Part shown: one piece after another, positions 8,556 to 28,796 of the stretch | How positions within the stretch are numbered: the first letter of the stretch is position 1 | Layout: the number at the start of each line of letters is the position of its first letter | Assembly: GCA_903909215.1 (NCBI GenBank) | Contig: CAIVUX010000003.1 | Location: 1-47,383 of the forward strand | Source: an uncultured Ferrovum sp. | GTDB taxonomy: Bacteria; Pseudomonadota; Gammaproteobacteria; Burkholderiales; Ferrovaceae | Direction of reading: 5' to 3' | Length of the DNA: 47,383 bases | The notes under the pieces: generated by a model | What the model was told of the DNA's origin: nothing | The model's database searches: none | The model's input: the letters and a program-made list of their open reading frames with translations, nothing else | Position numbers and translations under genes: made by a program

Positions 8556-10091
8556 ATGAACCTCCTTAAAGCCCTTGCCCAAACCAGCAGCATGACGCTG
8601 CTCTCACGCATCCTCGGATTTATCCGGGATGCCTCTGTTGCCCACGTATTTGGGGCCGGCGGCCTGACCGATGCCTTTTTTGTGGCTTTTCGCATCCCCA
8701 ACTTACTGCGTCGCCTGTTCGCGGAAGGGGCTTTTTCCCAAGCATTTGTCCCTATTTTGGCCGAAGCCAAGACCCGCTTAGGTGAGGAAGCGGCTCACCG
8801 CTTGGTGGACCATGTGGCCACTGCCTTGGCCTTGGTGGTGGCCCTAACATCCTTGCTGGGCGTGGTGTTTGCTCCTCAAGTGATCACTATTTCAGCCCCC
8901 GGTTTTGCCTCGGATCCTGATAAATTTGCCATTGCCTCAGACCTGTTGCGCGTTACTTTTCCTTATATTTTCTTTATTTCTATGGTGTCTTTGGCCGCCG
9001 GGGTGCTCAATACCTGGAACCGCTTCTGGGTACCCGCCTTTACCCCTGTATTGCTTAATGTCTCCTTTATTTTCTTTGCCCTCGTGGCAGCCCCCTGGTT
9101 TGACCGTCCCATCATGGCGTTGGCGTGGGGCGCTTTGGCGGGCGGTGTGCTGCAATTGCTGTTTCAAGTACCTTTTTTGCGCGGCATTCACATGTGGCCT
9201 CGTTTTCGCTGGAACCCCCGTGAACCGGGTCTGTTGCGGGTACTCAAACTGATGGGGCCCGCCGTGATTGGGGTGTCGGTAGGACAAATCAGCCTAGTGA
9301 TCAGTACTATTTTTGCCTCTTATTTGCCCACAGGCAGTGTGTCTTGGTTGTTTTATGCAGACCGTTTGATGGAATTTCCTACCGGCTTACTGGGAGCGGC
9401 CTTGGGTACCATTTTGTTACCCAGTCTGGTCAGCCATCATGCGGCGGGCGATGAAAACCGCTATTCCGGCCTCTTGGATTGGGGCTTGCGCCTTACCTTG
9501 GTGCTGACCTTGCCTGCGGCGGTGGCTATGGCTGTGGCGGGTGTGCCGCTGGTTTCCACGCTGTTCTTCCGTGGCGCTTTTCAAGCCCATGATGTGCTGA
9601 TGGTGCGCAATGCCTTAATGGCGTACAGCCTGGGTTTAACCGGCCTGATTGCCGTGAAGATTCTAGCCCCTGGTTTTTACGCCCGGCAAAACATCAAAAC
9701 ACCGGTAAAAATTGCCATTCTGGTATTGGCTGTAACACAGGTAATGAATGTGCTGTTCATGATTCCCTTTCAGCATGCGGGGTTGGCCTTGGCCACAGGA
9801 TTGGGCGCCTGCCTGAACGCGGGGCTGCTCTACCACGGCCTGCGCAGTCGCAATTTATTTCAGCCACGCCCCGGTTGGGGCCGTTTCTTCATGCAGCTCT
9901 TGTTGGCGTTGCTTGTCATGGGGGCAGTGTTGTCCTTCTTTCAAGGAGAGGAAGGGCGTTGGCTGAAGGGGGATAGTTGGCAGCATTTGCTGTGGCTAAC
10001 GCCTTTATTGCTGGGTGCTGGTTTTAGCTATCTGGCCACGCTCTGGCTGACTGGTGTGCGCTTGAGTGATTTCTCTAAGCGCGGCGCTTAG
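8556..10091 (+). CDS. murJ: Lipid II flippase MurJ
   Basis: A multi-pass inner-membrane protein (about 14 hydrophobic helices, 511 residues) of the MOP superfamily that moves lipid-linked peptidoglycan precursor across the membrane. The N-terminus MNLLKALAQTSSMTLLSRIL and the DAFFVAFRIPNLLRRLFAEG segment with its conserved arginines are typical. I chose the ATG at 8556 rather than one seven codons upstream, because family members start here. The stop TAG shares its G with the first repeat unit at 10091. Confidence 0.94.
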   Translation: MNLLKALAQTSSMTLLSRILGFIRDASVAHVFGAGGLTDAFFVAFRIPNLLRRLFAEGAFSQAFVPILAEAKTRLGEEAAHRLVDHVATALALVVALTSLLGVVFAPQVITISAPGFASDPDKFAIASDLLRVTFPYIFFISMVSLAAGVLNTWNRFWVPAFTPVLLNVSFIFFALVAAPWFDRPIMALAWGALAGGVLQLLFQVPFLRGIHMWPRFRWNPREPGLLRVLKLMGPAVIGVSVGQISLVISTIFASYLPTGSVSWLFYADRLMEFPTGLLGAALGTILLPSLVSHHAAGDENRYSGLLDWGLRLTLVLTLPAAVAMAVAGVPLVSTLFFRGAFQAHDVLMVRNALMAYSLGLTGLIAVKILAPGFYARQNIKTPVKIAILVLAVTQVMNVLFMIPFQHAGLALATGLGACLNAGLLYHGLRSRNLFQPRPGWGRFFMQLLLALLVMGAVLSFFQGEEGRWLKGDSWQHLLWLTPLLLGAGFSYLATLWLTGVRLSDFSKRGA

Positions 10092-10140
10092 GGGTCAGAC
10101 CCCATTTCTTGGGGTCAGACCCCGGGTGGGGTCTGACCCC
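10091..10140. repeat. Three 13-nt repeat units filling the murJ/cysB gap
   Basis: GGGGTCAGACCCC occurs at 10091-10103 and 10111-10123, and its complement at 10128-10140. The units make up nearly all of the DNA between the convergent stop codons of murJ and cysB. The inverted second and third units can form a 13-bp stem with a four-base loop on either strand, so a role in stopping transcription from both sides is possible. Confidence 0.9.
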
Positions 10141-18002: not shown

Positions 18003-18962
18003 CTATTTATGCAGGCGCTGGCGCAACGCTTCGCATGGATCAGGGCGCGGTTCTTCGGGGACATAAGCCACCACATCAAAAGCATTCTGCGGTTCAGCAT
18101 CATGGTTCTGCGCGACCGTCGGTGATGTTTGATTAGACGATTGTGACTCTGACTCCAGCACGGCCACACTCACCACCACCGCATGAGGATCCATTTGATG
18201 CAACCACACGGGCACCGCCAAGTCATTGCGCAGATGCCCGTTACCGGCCAACAGCACCACGGGGCCATGGGTGCGTTGATGCAACGCCACCAACGTCTGA
18301 GCCATTTCATAATCACGCGCCCGTTGGGCATTCACCATGCTGGGCAGCAGATGTTCTGGCATTAAATTGCAGTGCCCCACACGCACTTCATTCAATAGGG
18401 CCTCTCTTTGCTCATTACTCCAAGCGCTGGGCTCATGGGGCGCTGAGCGTTCACCGCTCATAATTTGACCCAGCTCAGAGCGCGACAAATTTGCAGCGGC
18501 GAGTGGAATGCTTTGCGCCAATGCCCATGTGAAGACCGGTTCATAGAGCGGCCATTTCCAACCTTTAAAATCGAATTTCGCTTCTTCGGCAATACTGCGG
18601 GCTTGATTGGCGTCTGGTTGTTGATGCGCACTTTTCCAACTCGTGATAGCGCTATCTAATGCCGCTTGATTAAAAACATCCAACTGCTCCATAGCAATGG
18701 AAACTTTTCGTTGCGTTGTGAGTTGCTGCAGCCAAGAAAAGCGCAGCGCGTGGCCGGCTGCGTTGTCGTGCACTTCGCCCAACAAGATGTAATCTGCCGT
18801 GAGCGTTTGCTTGGGCAGCGGGTCATTGCTATCACTAAACACTTCAGGAGATGTGAGCGCCATCAGCGGAAACAGCAAGAGAAACAAAAATAATCGCCAA
18901 TAGGGGTCAGACCCCATTAGGGGTCTGACCCCTATTTCAATTTTGGAGGGTGAATTATTCAT
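18003..18962 (-). CDS. ChaN/Tiki-like heme-binding uptake family protein
   Basis: The domain from about residue 50 (DYILLGEVHDN, then SIAMEQLDVF, and later LLAGNGHLRNDLAVP) matches the Cofac_haem_bdg family that includes the iron-regulated lipoprotein ChaN. A hydrophobic signal segment (LFLFLLLFPLMAL) lies near residues 24-36, with no lipobox cysteine. The C-terminal 65 residues are low-complexity and not conserved. I favour the ATG at 18962; no strong ribosome site is visible. An upstream TTG (19004) and an ATG at 18917 are alternatives. The pair of 13-nt repeats at 18899-18936 codes for residues 9-21 or so, just before the signal segment, and the 18917 ATG lies in the repeat spacer. Confidence 0.75.
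   Translation of the reverse strand: MNNSPSKIEIGVRPLMGSDPYWRLFLFLLLFPLMALTSPEVFSDSNDPLPKQTLTADYILLGEVHDNAAGHALRFSWLQQLTTQRKVSIAMEQLDVFNQAALDSAITSWKSAHQQPDANQARSIAEEAKFDFKGWKWPLYEPVFTWALAQSIPLAAANLSRSELGQIMSGERSAPHEPSAWSNEQREALLNEVRVGHCNLMPEHLLPSMVNAQRARDYEMAQTLVALHQRTHGPVVLLAGNGHLRNDLAVPVWLHQMDPHAVVVSVAVLESESQSSNQTSPTVAQNHDAEPQNAFDVVAYVPEEPRPDPCEALRQRLHK
18899..18936. repeat. 38-nt inverted repeat of two 13-nt units inside the ChaN-like gene
   Basis: GGGGTCAGACCCC at 18903-18915 and its complement at 18920-18932 are separated by ATTA. The complementarity extends outward by AATA on the left and TATT on the right, so the arms are 17 nt each. The insertion keeps the reading frame of the minus-strand gene. 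Confidence 0.9.
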
Positions 18963-19028
18963 AATGACGAAAATACCATGAAAAATACCCACTGGGGACA
19001 ACAAGAACTTGCAGAATGCTGGATATAA

Positions 19029-21040: not shown

Positions 21041-21108
21041 GCATTGGTTGTCAAAATTCCGCCTTTTGGGGTAGCCTTAACGATTCCCCATGCCGCGCGC
21101 CATTGTTC

Positions 21109-22482
21109 ATGCCCTTTATTAGTCACAACCCCGCCACCGAAACGATTCTTGAACGCTTTGATAGCCTCGATAAAACTGCGCTGGCTGCACTTTTGTCACA
21201 AACCCATGCCGCCCAGCGAGAATGGCGTCACAGGCCTTTTGCGCAACGTGCTGCGCTGCTGCGTGCCTTAAACCACCTGTTGTTGGCGCAACAAGACCGC
21301 TTGGCAGCCTTAATTACCGAAGAGATGGGCAAACCCACCCGTGAGGCCCTCTCGGAAATTAAACGCTGTGCCGCCGTATGTCTTTATTACGCCACTGAGG
21401 GCGAGGCCTTTTTAACCCCGCAGCCCACAGCCTCCGATGAGTTACACCACAGCTACATTTCCTACCACCCCATCGGCGTGGTGCTGGGCGTTATGCCTTG
21501 GAACTTCCCGTTTTGGCAGGTGTTTCGCTTTGCTGTTCCAGCCCTCATGGCTGGCAATGGCGTGGCCATTAAGCATGCCCCCAACGTGCCGCGCTGTGCG
21601 GCGGCTATTGCGGAGGTTATGAGTTCAGCGGGCTTTCCCCCACACCTCATCACCAATCTCTACATAGAAGATGCGTTGGTGGCGGATGCCATCGCCAGTC
21701 CGCACGTGCAAGCCGTTACCCTTACGGGCTCTGGCCGCGCAGGGCGTGCTGTGGCGGCATTGAGTGGTGGCGCCTTAAAGAAATGCATTTTAGAGCTGGG
21801 GGGGTCAGACCCCTTTGTGGTGTTGGCGGATGCGGATTTAGAATGGGCCGCAGACCAAGCCATAACCTCTCGCTTTAGCAATTGCGGGCAAACCTGCATC
21901 GCCGCCAAACGGTTTATTCTGCTGCCCCAAATTACCGATGACTTTATTGCTTTATTGCAACAGAAGGTAGCCGCTTTGAAGGTGGGCAACCCGGCCGACC
22001 CGGGCGTTACCATTGGCCCTATGGCGCGCCAGGACTTGCGTGACAACTTGCAACGCCAAGTGGATCTGGCGCTGAGTGCCGGTGCCCACTGCTTAATGGG
22101 CGGCCATATGCTGCCCGGCCCTGGTTGGTTTTACGCGCCCACCCTATTAGATAACATCACCGAAAGCTCGCCGGCGTGGACAGAAGAATTGTTTGGTCCT
22201 GTGGCGCTCATCATTCGCGCACGCGATGAAATGGATGCCTTGCGTTTGGCCAATGACACGCCCTATGGATTGGGGTCTAGCGTATGGGGGCGGAATGCGG
22301 AACACGCCGAACAGTTTGCCGAAGGCATCGAAGCCGGCTGTACGTTTGTTAATGGCATGGTGCGCTCCGATCCACGTCTGCCCTTTGGGGGCACCAAGGC
22401 CTCAGGCTTTGGGCGCGAACTCTCCAGCCATGGCATTCGAGAATTCACCAACATCAAAACGGTTTGGGTGAAAAACGGATAG
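21109..22482 (+). CDS. Aldehyde dehydrogenase, succinate-semialdehyde dehydrogenase (Sad/YneI) type
   Basis: Oxidises an aldehyde to the acid with NAD(P); the closest family I recognise is YneI/Sad, which acts on succinate semialdehyde. The protein has 457 residues with PWNFPFWQ near residue 130, IKHAPN (family-typical in place of IKPSE), the general-base glutamate 229 in LELGGSDPF and the catalytic cysteine 263 in NCGQTC. The ATG at 21109 is preferred over a TTG two codons upstream; neither has a good ribosome site. The stop TAG shares its G with a repeat unit, and an exact 13-nt unit also lies at 21801 inside the conserved GGSDPF codons. Confidence 0.87.
   Translation: MPFISHNPATETILERFDSLDKTALAALLSQTHAAQREWRHRPFAQRAALLRALNHLLLAQQDRLAALITEEMGKPTREALSEIKRCAAVCLYYATEGEAFLTPQPTASDELHHSYISYHPIGVVLGVMPWNFPFWQVFRFAVPALMAGNGVAIKHAPNVPRCAAAIAEVMSSAGFPPHLITNLYIEDALVADAIASPHVQAVTLTGSGRAGRAVAALSGGALKKCILELGGSDPFVVLADADLEWAADQAITSRFSNCGQTCIAAKRFILLPQITDDFIALLQQKVAALKVGNPADPGVTIGPMARQDLRDNLQRQVDLALSAGAHCLMGGHMLPGPGWFYAPTLLDNITESSPAWTEELFGPVALIIRARDEMDALRLANDTPYGLGSSVWGRNAEHAEQFAEGIEAGCTFVNGMVRSDPRLPFGGTKASGFGRELSSHGIREFTNIKTVWVKNG
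21801..21813. repeat. 13-nt repeat sequence within the aldehyde dehydrogenase active-site codons
   Basis: GGGGTCAGACCCC encodes part of LGGSDPF, a motif conserved in this protein family. The amino acids are native, so this copy is not an inserted element. Confidence 0.8.
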
Positions 22483-22511
22483 GGGTCAGACCCGGGGTGG
22501 GGTCAGACCCC
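22482..22511. repeat. Two repeat units filling the gap between aldehyde dehydrogenase and ilvA
   Basis: A unit with one changed base (GGGGTCAGACCCG, 22482-22494) and an exact unit (22499-22511) form the whole interval between the convergent stops. The outer edges are ATA and TAT, and each TAG stop uses the terminal G of a unit. The inverted edges allow a hairpin on either strand. Confidence 0.9.
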
Positions 22512-27177: not shown

Positions 27178-27936
27178 TTATAGCGGTTGCGTGGGCCCTG
27201 TTTCCACAAAATCACCCCAACGCCCCTGCAAGGTGGCCAGTAGGGCCATGGCGGCCGTTTCGGTGCGCAAAATGCGTGGTCCCAAGCGCAATGAAATGAA
27301 GCCCGCCGCCTGCGCGGCCGCCATCTCACCTTCAGTAAAGCCGCCCTCAGGCCCCACCAGCAATACCACTGGCCCCACAGGCGCGGTGAGTTGGTCCAAA
27401 GTGGTTTGAGCATGGGGTGCCAAAATAAGCTTCAGGCTATCGGCAGGCAATGTGGTGAGCCATTCTTGCAGCGGCGTTATTGCATCTACCGTAGGGACGC
27501 GATTGCGCCCCGATTGCTCACAGGCTGATATCACCACACGCTGCCAATGCTGCTCTCTTTTTTGAGCGCGCTCGGCGCTCAACCTCACCACGCTGCGCTC
27601 AGTACTAATGGGTGTGCAGCGGGCTACGCCCAGCTCCACTGATTTTTGAAATACCAAATCCATTTTTTCAGTCACGCAGAGAGCTTGCCCCAACCATACC
27701 CGCAATGTGGATTCGGCCTCACGCTCTGAGCGGGACACGCGCTGCACGTTGACCTCCCCGCCATTAATTTCAGTAATGCAGGCGCGCTCTTCCCCGCCCG
27801 TGCCATCAAATAAGATGATGTCTTCGCCCACCTTTAGGCGCAACACACGGCTAGCGTGATGGGCCACGGTGGCAGGCAAAGAGAAATGCGGATGGTCCGC
27901 CAAAGGGGTGTCGCAATAAAAGCGTGGAATAGCCAT
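27178..27936 (-). CDS. rsmE: 16S rRNA (uracil1498-N3)-methyltransferase
   Basis: Methylates U1498 of 16S rRNA; a SPOUT-class enzyme with a knotted C-terminus. In the 252-residue protein the N-terminal PUA-like part begins AIPRFYCDTPL, and VGPEGGFTEGE plus RLGPRILRTETA form the AdoMet-binding knot. The ATG at 27936 is chosen because upstream codons are repeat-derived. The palindrome at 27946-27983 starts ten bases upstream, where a ribosome site would be expected, and I see no other site. It leads rsmE-argA-yggX. Confidence 0.93.
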   Translation of the reverse strand: MAIPRFYCDTPLADHPHFSLPATVAHHASRVLRLKVGEDIILFDGTGGEERACITEINGGEVNVQRVSRSEREAESTLRVWLGQALCVTEKMDLVFQKSVELGVARCTPISTERSVVRLSAERAQKREQHWQRVVISACEQSGRNRVPTVDAITPLQEWLTTLPADSLKLILAPHAQTTLDQLTAPVGPVVLLVGPEGGFTEGEMAAAQAAGFISLRLGPRILRTETAAMALLATLQGRWGDFVETGPTQPL

Positions 27937-27945
27937 GGTTCGTTG

Positions 27946-27983
27946 TTTTGGGGTCAGACCCCGTACGGGGTCTGACCCCAAAA
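27946..27983. repeat. 38-nt perfect palindrome of two 13-nt units between rsmE and an IMPase-like gene
   Basis: GGGGTCAGACCCC at 27950-27962 and its complement at 27967-27979 are joined by the self-complementary GTAC. TTTT on the left and AAAA on the right extend the symmetry, so all 38 bases form one perfect palindrome. It lies in the divergent promoter region and within the presumed rsmE leader. Confidence 0.92.
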
Positions 27984-28013
27984 TAACAGATGGCACCATG
28001 CTATCATGCGCGC

Positions 28014-28796
28014 ATGCGCGATCAACTTATTCAAGTGGTTAAAACTGTCGCCCAGCAAGAGGTGATGCCGCGCTATTTGAAGGTGGCTCATGAACGAAAA
28101 AATGACGGCAGCTTATTTACCACCGCCGACTTAGCCGCCCAAGAAGCCTTGGTTACCGCCCTGAACGCCTTGCATCCTTGCCCCATCCTGGGCGAAGAAA
28201 TGACAGAATCGCTGCAGCATTCCATATGGAACCAACATAGCGTGGATATTTGGTGCGTAGACCCCATCGATGGCACCTCCAACTTTGTGCACGGCATTCC
28301 CTACTTCGCCGTGTCCGTGGCGCTGATGCGTAACGGTCGGTCTATTTTGGGCGTGGTGTATGACCCCGTGTCTGATGAATGTTTTTCTGCAGAAAAAGCA
28401 CAGGGTGCTTGGCTTAATGGGGTGCCATTGCCGATTGCTGAAACCGCGCCCACTTTGCAAGAGGCCATCGCGGGCGTTGATTTAAAACGTTTGCCTACTG
28501 CTCTGGCGCAGGCCTTAAGCGCCAATCCGCCCTACGCCTCACAGCGAAATTTTGGTGCCAGCACGCTTGAATGGTGCTATGTGGCCGCCGGGCGACTGAA
28601 CGTGTATTTGCATGGTGGTCAAAAGCTATGGGATTACGCCGCAGGGTCTCTTATCTTAGAAGAATCGGGTGGGCATTACTGCAGTCTTGATGAGCAACCG
28701 TTTTGGGAAGGCCAACCCTGGGCTCGCTCGGTAATGGCCAGCCTTAACCCGGAACTGTTTAATCAATGGCGTGATTGGTTGCGCACGGCGCGCTAA
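28014..28796 (+). CDS. Inositol-monophosphatase-family phosphatase
   Basis: A Mg-dependent sugar- or nucleotide-phosphate phosphatase. The 260-residue protein has the family motifs GEEM near residue 65, WCVDPIDGTSNFVHG near residue 80 with the metal aspartates, and WDYAAGSLILEESGG near residue 207. Candidates are inositol monophosphatase, CysQ-like or histidinol-phosphate phosphatase; sequence alone does not choose. The ATG at 28014 is preferred over one at 27990 because the family starts there. The end overlaps the cbbR stop by four bases. Confidence 0.85.
   Translation: MRDQLIQVVKTVAQQEVMPRYLKVAHERKNDGSLFTTADLAAQEALVTALNALHPCPILGEEMTESLQHSIWNQHSVDIWCVDPIDGTSNFVHGIPYFAVSVALMRNGRSILGVVYDPVSDECFSAEKAQGAWLNGVPLPIAETAPTLQEAIAGVDLKRLPTALAQALSANPPYASQRNFGASTLEWCYVAAGRLNVYLHGGQKLWDYAAGSLILEESGGHYCSLDEQPFWEGQPWARSVMASLNPELFNQWRDWLRTAR

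Follow-up and report, generated by a model that had tools for sequence, protein, structure and literature searches.

How did a perfect 38-nt palindrome come to stand at 27946-27983 of the window, the 47,383-nt stretch analysed here, and why do its outermost bases agree with each other and differ from those of a second palindrome built to the same plan? The first reads TTTT-GGGGTCAGACCCC-GTAC-GGGGTCTGACCCC-AAAA and the second, at 18899-18936, reads AATA-GGGGTCAGACCCC-ATTA-GGGGTCTGACCCC-TATT, which forms 17 perfect base pairs closed by a loop of 4 nt (ATTA is not self-complementary). The two sequences are as a preliminary description gave them, each of 17+4+17 design, the first with a GTAC centre and the second with an ATTA centre. 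Each consists of two copies of a 13-nt unit, GGGGTC[A/T]GACCCC, in opposite orientation with 4 nt between, and the unit is itself palindromic with an odd centre. Folded as single DNA strands, the two palindromes reached -20.1 and -20.4 kcal/mol, and 0 of 200 shuffles did as well in either case. The gene to the left of the first palindrome encodes an RNA-methyltransferase on the minus strand (ORF 27178-27999 as listed, with a true start probably near 27938), and that to the right belongs to the inositol-monophosphatase family on the plus strand (ORF 27990-28796). The second palindrome falls within a listed minus-strand ORF (18003-19004), upstream of its ChaN/haem-binding domain, and therefore probably lies at or before the true start. 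In the window the 13-mer stands at six places (Table 1); matches with up to two mismatches number 24 (both strands, each unit counted twice) against 0.88 expected from shuffles, the largest of which gave 6.

Table 1. Positions of the 13-mer and of associated 12-mers, in window coordinates unless a stretch is named.
Feature	Position	Strand	Details
Flagged inverted pair	27946..27983	.	flank TTTT, unit 27950-27962, spacer GTAC 27963-27966, unit 27967-27979, flank AAAA
Second inverted pair	18899..18936	.	spacer ATTA, flanks AATA/TATT
Three-unit cluster (+, +, -)	10091..10140	.	units 10091-10103, 10111-10123, 10128-10140; spacers ATTTCTT, GGGT
Two same-orientation units	22482..22511	.	22482-22494 (one mismatch), 22499-22511 (exact); spacer GGGT
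Single unit in aldehyde-dehydrogenase gene (ORF 21103-22482)	21801..21813	+	encodes GGSDP of ELGGSDPF motif
Unit at left contig end	9..21	-	followed by GGGGT-type 12-mers, minus strand
GGGGT-N7 12-mer, example	L041:3556-3567		
GGGGT-N7 12-mer, example	L061:40-63		
GGGGT-N7 12-mer, example	L043:8631-8641		
GGGGT-N7 12-mer, example	L105:17274-17285		

The unit belongs to a large family. Exact copies number 329 in the window's genome (G000, 1.53 Mb), 163 forward and 166 reverse, and the reversed 13-mer, used as a control, has 0 copies in that whole genome. Unit-level statistics cover stretches totalling 1,214,104 of 1,534,657 bases (21,107 of them N), which hold 252 exact units and 54 one-mismatch units, against 2-7 of the latter for four control palindromes; two-mismatch forms in the same bases (29) are at background (controls, 31-51). 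With up to one mismatch allowed, units form 175 clusters: 76 singles, 73 doublets (58 of them '+-') and 26 larger. Exact inverted pairs with gaps of 0-14 number 84 in the window's genome, and the commonest gap is four, in every orientation. Among the 50 of these 84 pairs that were listed, the 38 four-nt spacers are recurrent (GCAT/ATGC 10, ATGG/CCAT 5, CCCA/TGGG 5), indicating that pairs were copied as units. Contig ends lie within 110 nt of a unit in 20 of 87 cases, against 1.4 expected, so the hairpins probably break the assembly. Positions 22-84 of the window are identical over 63 bases, in opposite orientation and adjoining a unit, to L061:1-63, where contig C19 begins; C3 and C19 are probably neighbours that the assembly split at the hairpin. 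By a home-made greedy ORF call, 44.6% of clusters fall deep inside ORFs, where 74.1% of random positions do, and intergenic sites are over-represented, most of all those between convergent genes (14.3% against 1.2% of random positions); intergenic clusters comprise 25 convergent and 9 divergent cases, with adjacent ORF pairs at 156 to 135. Once the 13-mer is masked, 9-mers such as CCACCACCA (190) and CGCGCGCCA (148) are very common in the window and L031-L109.

That flanks differ between loci and match within each locus, as the preliminary description had proposed, holds for part of this family. In the genome-wide check of flank co-variation that it had suggested, the 36 four-gap '+-' pairs exceed shuffles: outer flanks match over 3.0 nt on average, where shuffles average 0.84 (largest 1.61), runs of at least 4 occur in 13 pairs (mean 1.8 and maximum 8 in 10,000 shuffles) and runs of at least 8 in seven (mean 0.23, maximum 4), the longest extending up to 19 nt. 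As a rule the proposal fails, since 15 of the 36 pairs are mismatched at the first flank base, and unmatched flanks, which the description itself had named as refuting, are found at many loci. The '+-' pairs with other gaps have a mean run of 2.0 against 0.71 in shuffles, singles carry little signal (0.69 against 0.44; largest shuffle 0.73), and at clusters of at least three units the outer flanks do not clearly exceed shuffles (0.81 against 0.59; largest shuffle 1.08). Of 18 equal-gap triplets, such as [+]CCTA[-]TAGG[-], seven carry spacers left and right of the middle unit that are exact inversions of each other (mean 0.77 and maximum 5 in 10,000 shuffles). Together, these results demonstrate locus-specific matched flanks in about a third of four-spacer pairs and frequent inversion of triplet spacers. 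Fold-back copying or template switching, the description's first explanation, is thereby supported for a minority of loci (the 13 pairs and seven triplets), many others being unmatched. Beyond the first mismatch, in pairs with runs of at least 4, agreement falls to 27% of 136 positions, close to background. Such a drop fits the copying of a stretch with definite bounds better than it fits the description's second explanation, selection for stable stems, if that acts gradually.

Part of the flank agreement arises from the motif's edge preference, T-W upstream and W-A downstream, which is also seen at genic singles; TT or TA is combined with AA or TA at the edges of 27 of 50 pairs. The longest runs are not all independent events, because a GGGGT 12-mer stands at -12, on one side or both, in four of the seven runs of at least 8 (L061, L041, L065 and L038), of which three resemble one another in flank sequence; several long runs with a degenerate GGGGT-N7 block at -12 may be related to one another. 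Pairs with GCAT/ATGC loops have matched runs of 5, 6, 11, 2, 0, 8 and 8. In 23 outer flanks a degenerate GGGGT-N7 12-mer immediately adjoins the unit, at -12 or -11, and some of these 12-mers repeat the adjacent 7 nt. GGGGT with up to one mismatch occurs 32 and 25 times at -12/-11, against about 3-14 elsewhere, and tandem 7-nt duplication at period 12 is weakly raised (14 of 333 flanks against 7.3 at random positions). Target-site duplications did not exceed shuffles beyond 2 nt (2-nt matches, 10 against 6.2 expected in 57 pairs), and self-BLAST for paralogous flanks returned 22 matches, including the window/C19 overlap and the related contig ends L065/L084, and no recognisable empty site. An intrinsic terminator was rejected: the stem is followed by no T-tract, the flanks being T-rich upstream and A-rich downstream. 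A GTAG/GTGG guide at the hairpin foot is absent from the 20 commonest flank tetramers of 332 flanks, whose edges are A/T-rich.

Units inside genes are of two kinds. Clusters deep in ORFs number 78 of 175, of which 50 are singles, and the encoded peptides are mostly GSDP, GQTP, GLTP or GVRP. Genic units were aligned pairwise, with approximate gap placement, to E. coli MG1655 (comparison stretches placed by gene position), to stretches of the relative G006 and to PDB sequences. Homologs could be aligned for 25 of about 50 deep genic singles (21 exact and four one-mismatch), some of them distant (NuoG, 27% identity), and 23 of these 25 gain or lose at most one residue: the aldehyde dehydrogenase (ALDH) of the window, MiaB, NadC, PrlC, PmbA, GltB, NuoG, DdlB, NudL, TrpF, GlyS (twice), MutY, HrpA, PheT, Era, RmlA, MnmC, two ABC-transporter ATPases, L061, L071 and L086. 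The ALDH unit adds zero residues relative to the best PDB homolog or E. coli AldA, and its GGSDP residues are also present in that PDB homolog; at the ALDH, MiaB and TrpF singles all or a large part of the residues belong to the family's own sequence. The two exceptions are Mpl (10 residues) and the second unit of D-Ala ligase (28).

By contrast with singles, genic pairs and multiples carried at least four residues absent from the homolog in all ten cases judged (Fmt 11, MnmE 6, Mpl 7, BioF 4, HrpA 8, RecJ 9, UvrD 5-9, L108 8, tartrate dehydrogenase 5 and MnmC about 8), one MnmC pair being ambiguous. Often the excess is about 4-9 residues, short of the 10-11 that a complete inserted pair would add, and in three multi-unit cases residues of the homolog are also missing from the query close by (11 in Mpl, 6 in RecJ and 4 in L108). 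A PDB search with L058:9055-10908 gave zero matches. Outside multi-unit clusters, the unit core encodes 24 of 28 GSDP peptides, where codon usage expects 0.22, and the remaining four equal the composition background of 4.1; for GQTP it encodes 8 of 11 (0.59 expected) and for GLTP 6 of 20 (0.70 expected). From these counts and the alignments it follows that a unit mostly supplies residues of its own, which overwrite those of the host protein without making it longer. Pairs and multiples in genes carry residues that homologs lack, and singles replace native codons, over which they were apparently written rather than inserted between them. Five-gap '+-' pairs lie deep in ORFs in 9 of 11 cases, against 2 of 36 for four-gap pairs, which fits preservation of the reading frame.

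Beyond this genome, units identical to those of the palindrome frame Y1-transposase genes of RAYT/TIRYT type. The terminal inverted repeat (TIR) motif given for TIRYT transposases (RAYT group 1 or subclass 2.1) in the accessible text of PMC3733652 and PMC6006769 is GGGGWSAS, which GGGGTCAG, contained in every exact unit, fits. When species genomes were scanned, inverted pairs turned up in several phyla, in at least 114 stretches; 20 genomes were picked from those carrying such pairs, and 16 of them gave a Y1_Tnp match. In these genomes, chosen for carrying pairs, an exact 13-mer lies within about 1.5 kb of the Y1-transposase locus in 14 of 30 cases and on both sides of the gene in 10 of 30, the both-side genomes including Dorea D27, Lachnospiraceae CE91-St61, Massilia TS11, Thioalkalivibrio, Alcaligenaceae CAII-53, two Halomonas, Hyphomicrobium and an Acidimicrobiales genome. 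Near the five IS200-like matches of over 100 bits there was no exact 13-mer, and several RAYT-sized matches also had none nearby (for example L263, L274-L276, L281 and L282). Two of 30 transposase loci of relatives (L122 and L128, from G056 and G053 of the same order) are flanked on both sides by GGGGTCAGACTC-type repeats. In the window's genome, which is 99.85% complete, a profile search for Y1_Tnp (PF01797) gave zero matches, and the TIRYT protein of G053 as query gave zero in this genome and in six family relatives (57-99% complete), with three matches in G053 and two in G043; a transposase could still fall in a gap of the assembly or under masked bases (21,107 N in 1,214,104 bases).

The same design takes different forms from genome to genome. 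Each genome has its own spacer length: 4 in Alcaligenaceae CAII-53 and, for the most part, in the window's genome, 10-11 in Dorea D27 and 12 in 18 of 22 pairs of Cellvibrionaceae AOL6 (G071), with units often abutting in G043. The GTAC spacer of the first palindrome recurs in 13 of 36 CAII-53 pairs, 2 of 4 Rugamonas pairs and 2 of 22 AOL6 pairs. CAII-53, with the same [+]N4[-] plan, has a mean flank run of 0.39 against 0.34 (36 pairs, one of 8 nt), and 1 of its 11 singles lies in an ORF (211 kb of stretches chosen for holding pairs). The flanks of Dorea D27 are a fixed TIR of about 10 nt, with clear covariation at position -2, so the preliminary description's statement that the flanks do not mark a fixed element end does not hold in general. 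Between relatives there is also a dialect, the one-letter variant GGGGACAGACCCC, in one sister genus (g7). It occurs 14 times in 258,654 bases of G006, ten of these in five pairs with 5-nt gaps. The form GGGGWCAGWCCCC counts 84 in G006 and 68 in G023, where the form of the window's genome counts 5 and 8, and 2 to 7 in three other g7 genomes, so only two of five are variant-rich. At one orthologous genic site (L086_5658) each genome has its own form. The GGGGACAGACCCC units of G006 (L343-L345) often have aaatt or tttt just outside.

Several known systems resemble this family in part. TIRYT TIR families share the motif, the identical 13-mers on both sides of Y1-transposase genes elsewhere, and the dimers and clusters; unlike them, the window's genome and six family relatives have no detected transposase, and the window's genome has genic singles by substitution and, in a minority of pairs, locus-specific matched flanks. 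Because no Y1 transposase bracketed by it was found in the same genome, the family is classed as related to TIRYT TIRs and orphaned, and not as a full member. REPIN/BIME elements (GTAG-tagged REPs of RAYTs), as far as the available text describes them, likewise have two inverted palindromic units with a short spacer in many, often intergenic, copies, whereas the present family has no GTAG tag, a 13-nt unit and no RAYT found in the window's genome. HIP1 of cyanobacteria occurs in genes. It is, in the accessible part of PMC4390886, a short and highly overrepresented palindrome, from which the 13-mer differs by its odd centre and by forming hairpin pairs. The uptake sequences of Neisseriaceae (DUS) and Pasteurellaceae (USS) are alike in being overrepresented short motifs with substituted genic copies, inverted intergenic pairs and dialects, in those portions of PMC2397512, PMC3630211 and PMC1939737 that were available; they differ in that the 13-mer is itself palindromic and equals a transposon TIR, and that its pairs lack the terminator layout of DUS pairs. 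The density of DUS in meningococci is given in the accessible text as about one per 1.15 kb (PMC2397512), and that of the 13-mer is about one per 4.7 kb. The exact 13-mer as a text string was not found in open-licence literature, in which we also saw no link of REP/RAYT to uptake sequences.

We suggest, at a probability of about 0.5, that this is an orphaned TIR/REP hairpin family that has grown in part by fold-back and whose motif has separately been driven into genes. The pairs would be TIR/REPIN-like hairpins that originally spread together with a transposase, which has either disappeared since or escaped the searches. As unit and pair each self-fold, a stalled nascent strand could fold back and copy its own flank or a neighbouring unit, which would extend the palindrome into host DNA (TTTT/AAAA, AATA/TATT, runs up to 19 nt) and add units, while the A/T edge preference would set a base level of flank agreement. 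Quasipalindrome template-switch mutagenesis would correct imperfectly matched flanks to perfect inverted matches over a bounded length; here template switching is put forward as the way in which a repeat family grows. Single units in genes may stem from a separate sequence-specific process of substitution, candidates being DUS-like biased recombination or HIP1-like selection for a bound or methylated site, the latter as has been proposed for HIP1. Against the whole stand the recurrence of GCAT/ATGC loops, where fold-back predicts random ones, the 15 of 36 pairs with unmatched flanks, the RAYT-sized matches lacking a 13-mer, the genic pairs with about 4-9 extra residues instead of 10-11 and the three multi-unit cases that also lack 4-11 nearby. 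In a bolder version, tentative and rather unlikely, the transposon-end hairpin has turned into a genome-wide signal: after loss of the transposase, biased uptake or recombination would rewrite near-matching genic sites, with a one-letter dialect in the sister genus, and pairs would still be growing by fold-back. If true, this would join two repeat classes that are usually kept separate, the REP/TIR hairpins made by transposases and the driven motifs to which DNA-uptake sequences belong, in a case where the origin of a driven genomic motif is traceable; the matched flanks would be a natural record of hairpin-driven template switching.

A DUS-like drive might by itself account for both kinds of site, an uptake- or recombination-preferred 13-mer accumulating through substitutions within genes and in the form of inverted pairs outside them, with transposon-end identity due to shared origin or coincidence. 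We regard it as a real possibility, if still an unlikely one. The 23 of 25 genic singles that are in place, the equal copy number on both strands, the convergent intergenic sites favoured by inverted pairs, and the dialect, with each genome's own form at the orthologous site, agree with it. ComEC is present in the window's genome, yet also in 10 of 14 control genomes, and units are spaced slightly more evenly than random (CV 0.92 against 1.08, sd 0.09), yet within 2 sd. Drive accords poorly with pairs that have inserted residues and recurrent spacers, with a 13-mer that brackets transposase genes elsewhere, with two-mismatch forms that are not enriched, with a variant abundant in two of five g7 genomes and paired in 10 of 14 G006 units, and with pairs devoid of the DUS terminator layout.

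Selection for longer stems, for instance for RNA structure or protein binding, is clearly doubtful: spacers covary like hairpin stems in Dorea D27, strongly (L284-L318; 26 ten-nt spacers, z 2.3-4.2), and to a weak degree in AOL6 (z at most 2.3 over 18 spacers, with one position falling short of expectation), and A/T edges are preferred on both sides, but 15 of 36 pairs have no flank match while others have long perfect runs that end abruptly, and the four-nt spacers of the window's genome show less pairing than shuffled ones do (0.16 and 0.13, where shuffles give 0.24 and 0.30), although a 4-nt loop need not pair. Pairs might instead have inserted into sites that were already inverted repeats. 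The inferred empty sites at long-run loci would be perfect palindromes of 16-22 nt or more, and identical GCAT pairs have different matched flanks, which this would predict; but such a genome should hold only about six perfect 18-nt palindromes by chance (an estimate from 4^9) and most pairs are not in one, making the idea very unlikely. Just as improbable is an ordinary decaying REPIN/TIR family, of old insertions with unrelated flanks, matches by chance and A/T bias, and singles as remnants. Sequence identity with TIRYT-associated units and the many unmatched pairs speak for decay; flank runs above all shuffles at part of the loci, the ratio of exact to one-mismatch units (252 to 54) and genic singles that are not insertions speak against it. 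Copies of the 13-mer without a Y1_Tnp match were also seen in G074 (Omnitrophota, 221) and G079 (Betaproteobacteria RYN_577, 382), possibly further orphan families, and the Dorea D27 and AOL6 pairs with 10-12-nt spacers form a natural test set for hairpin constraints.
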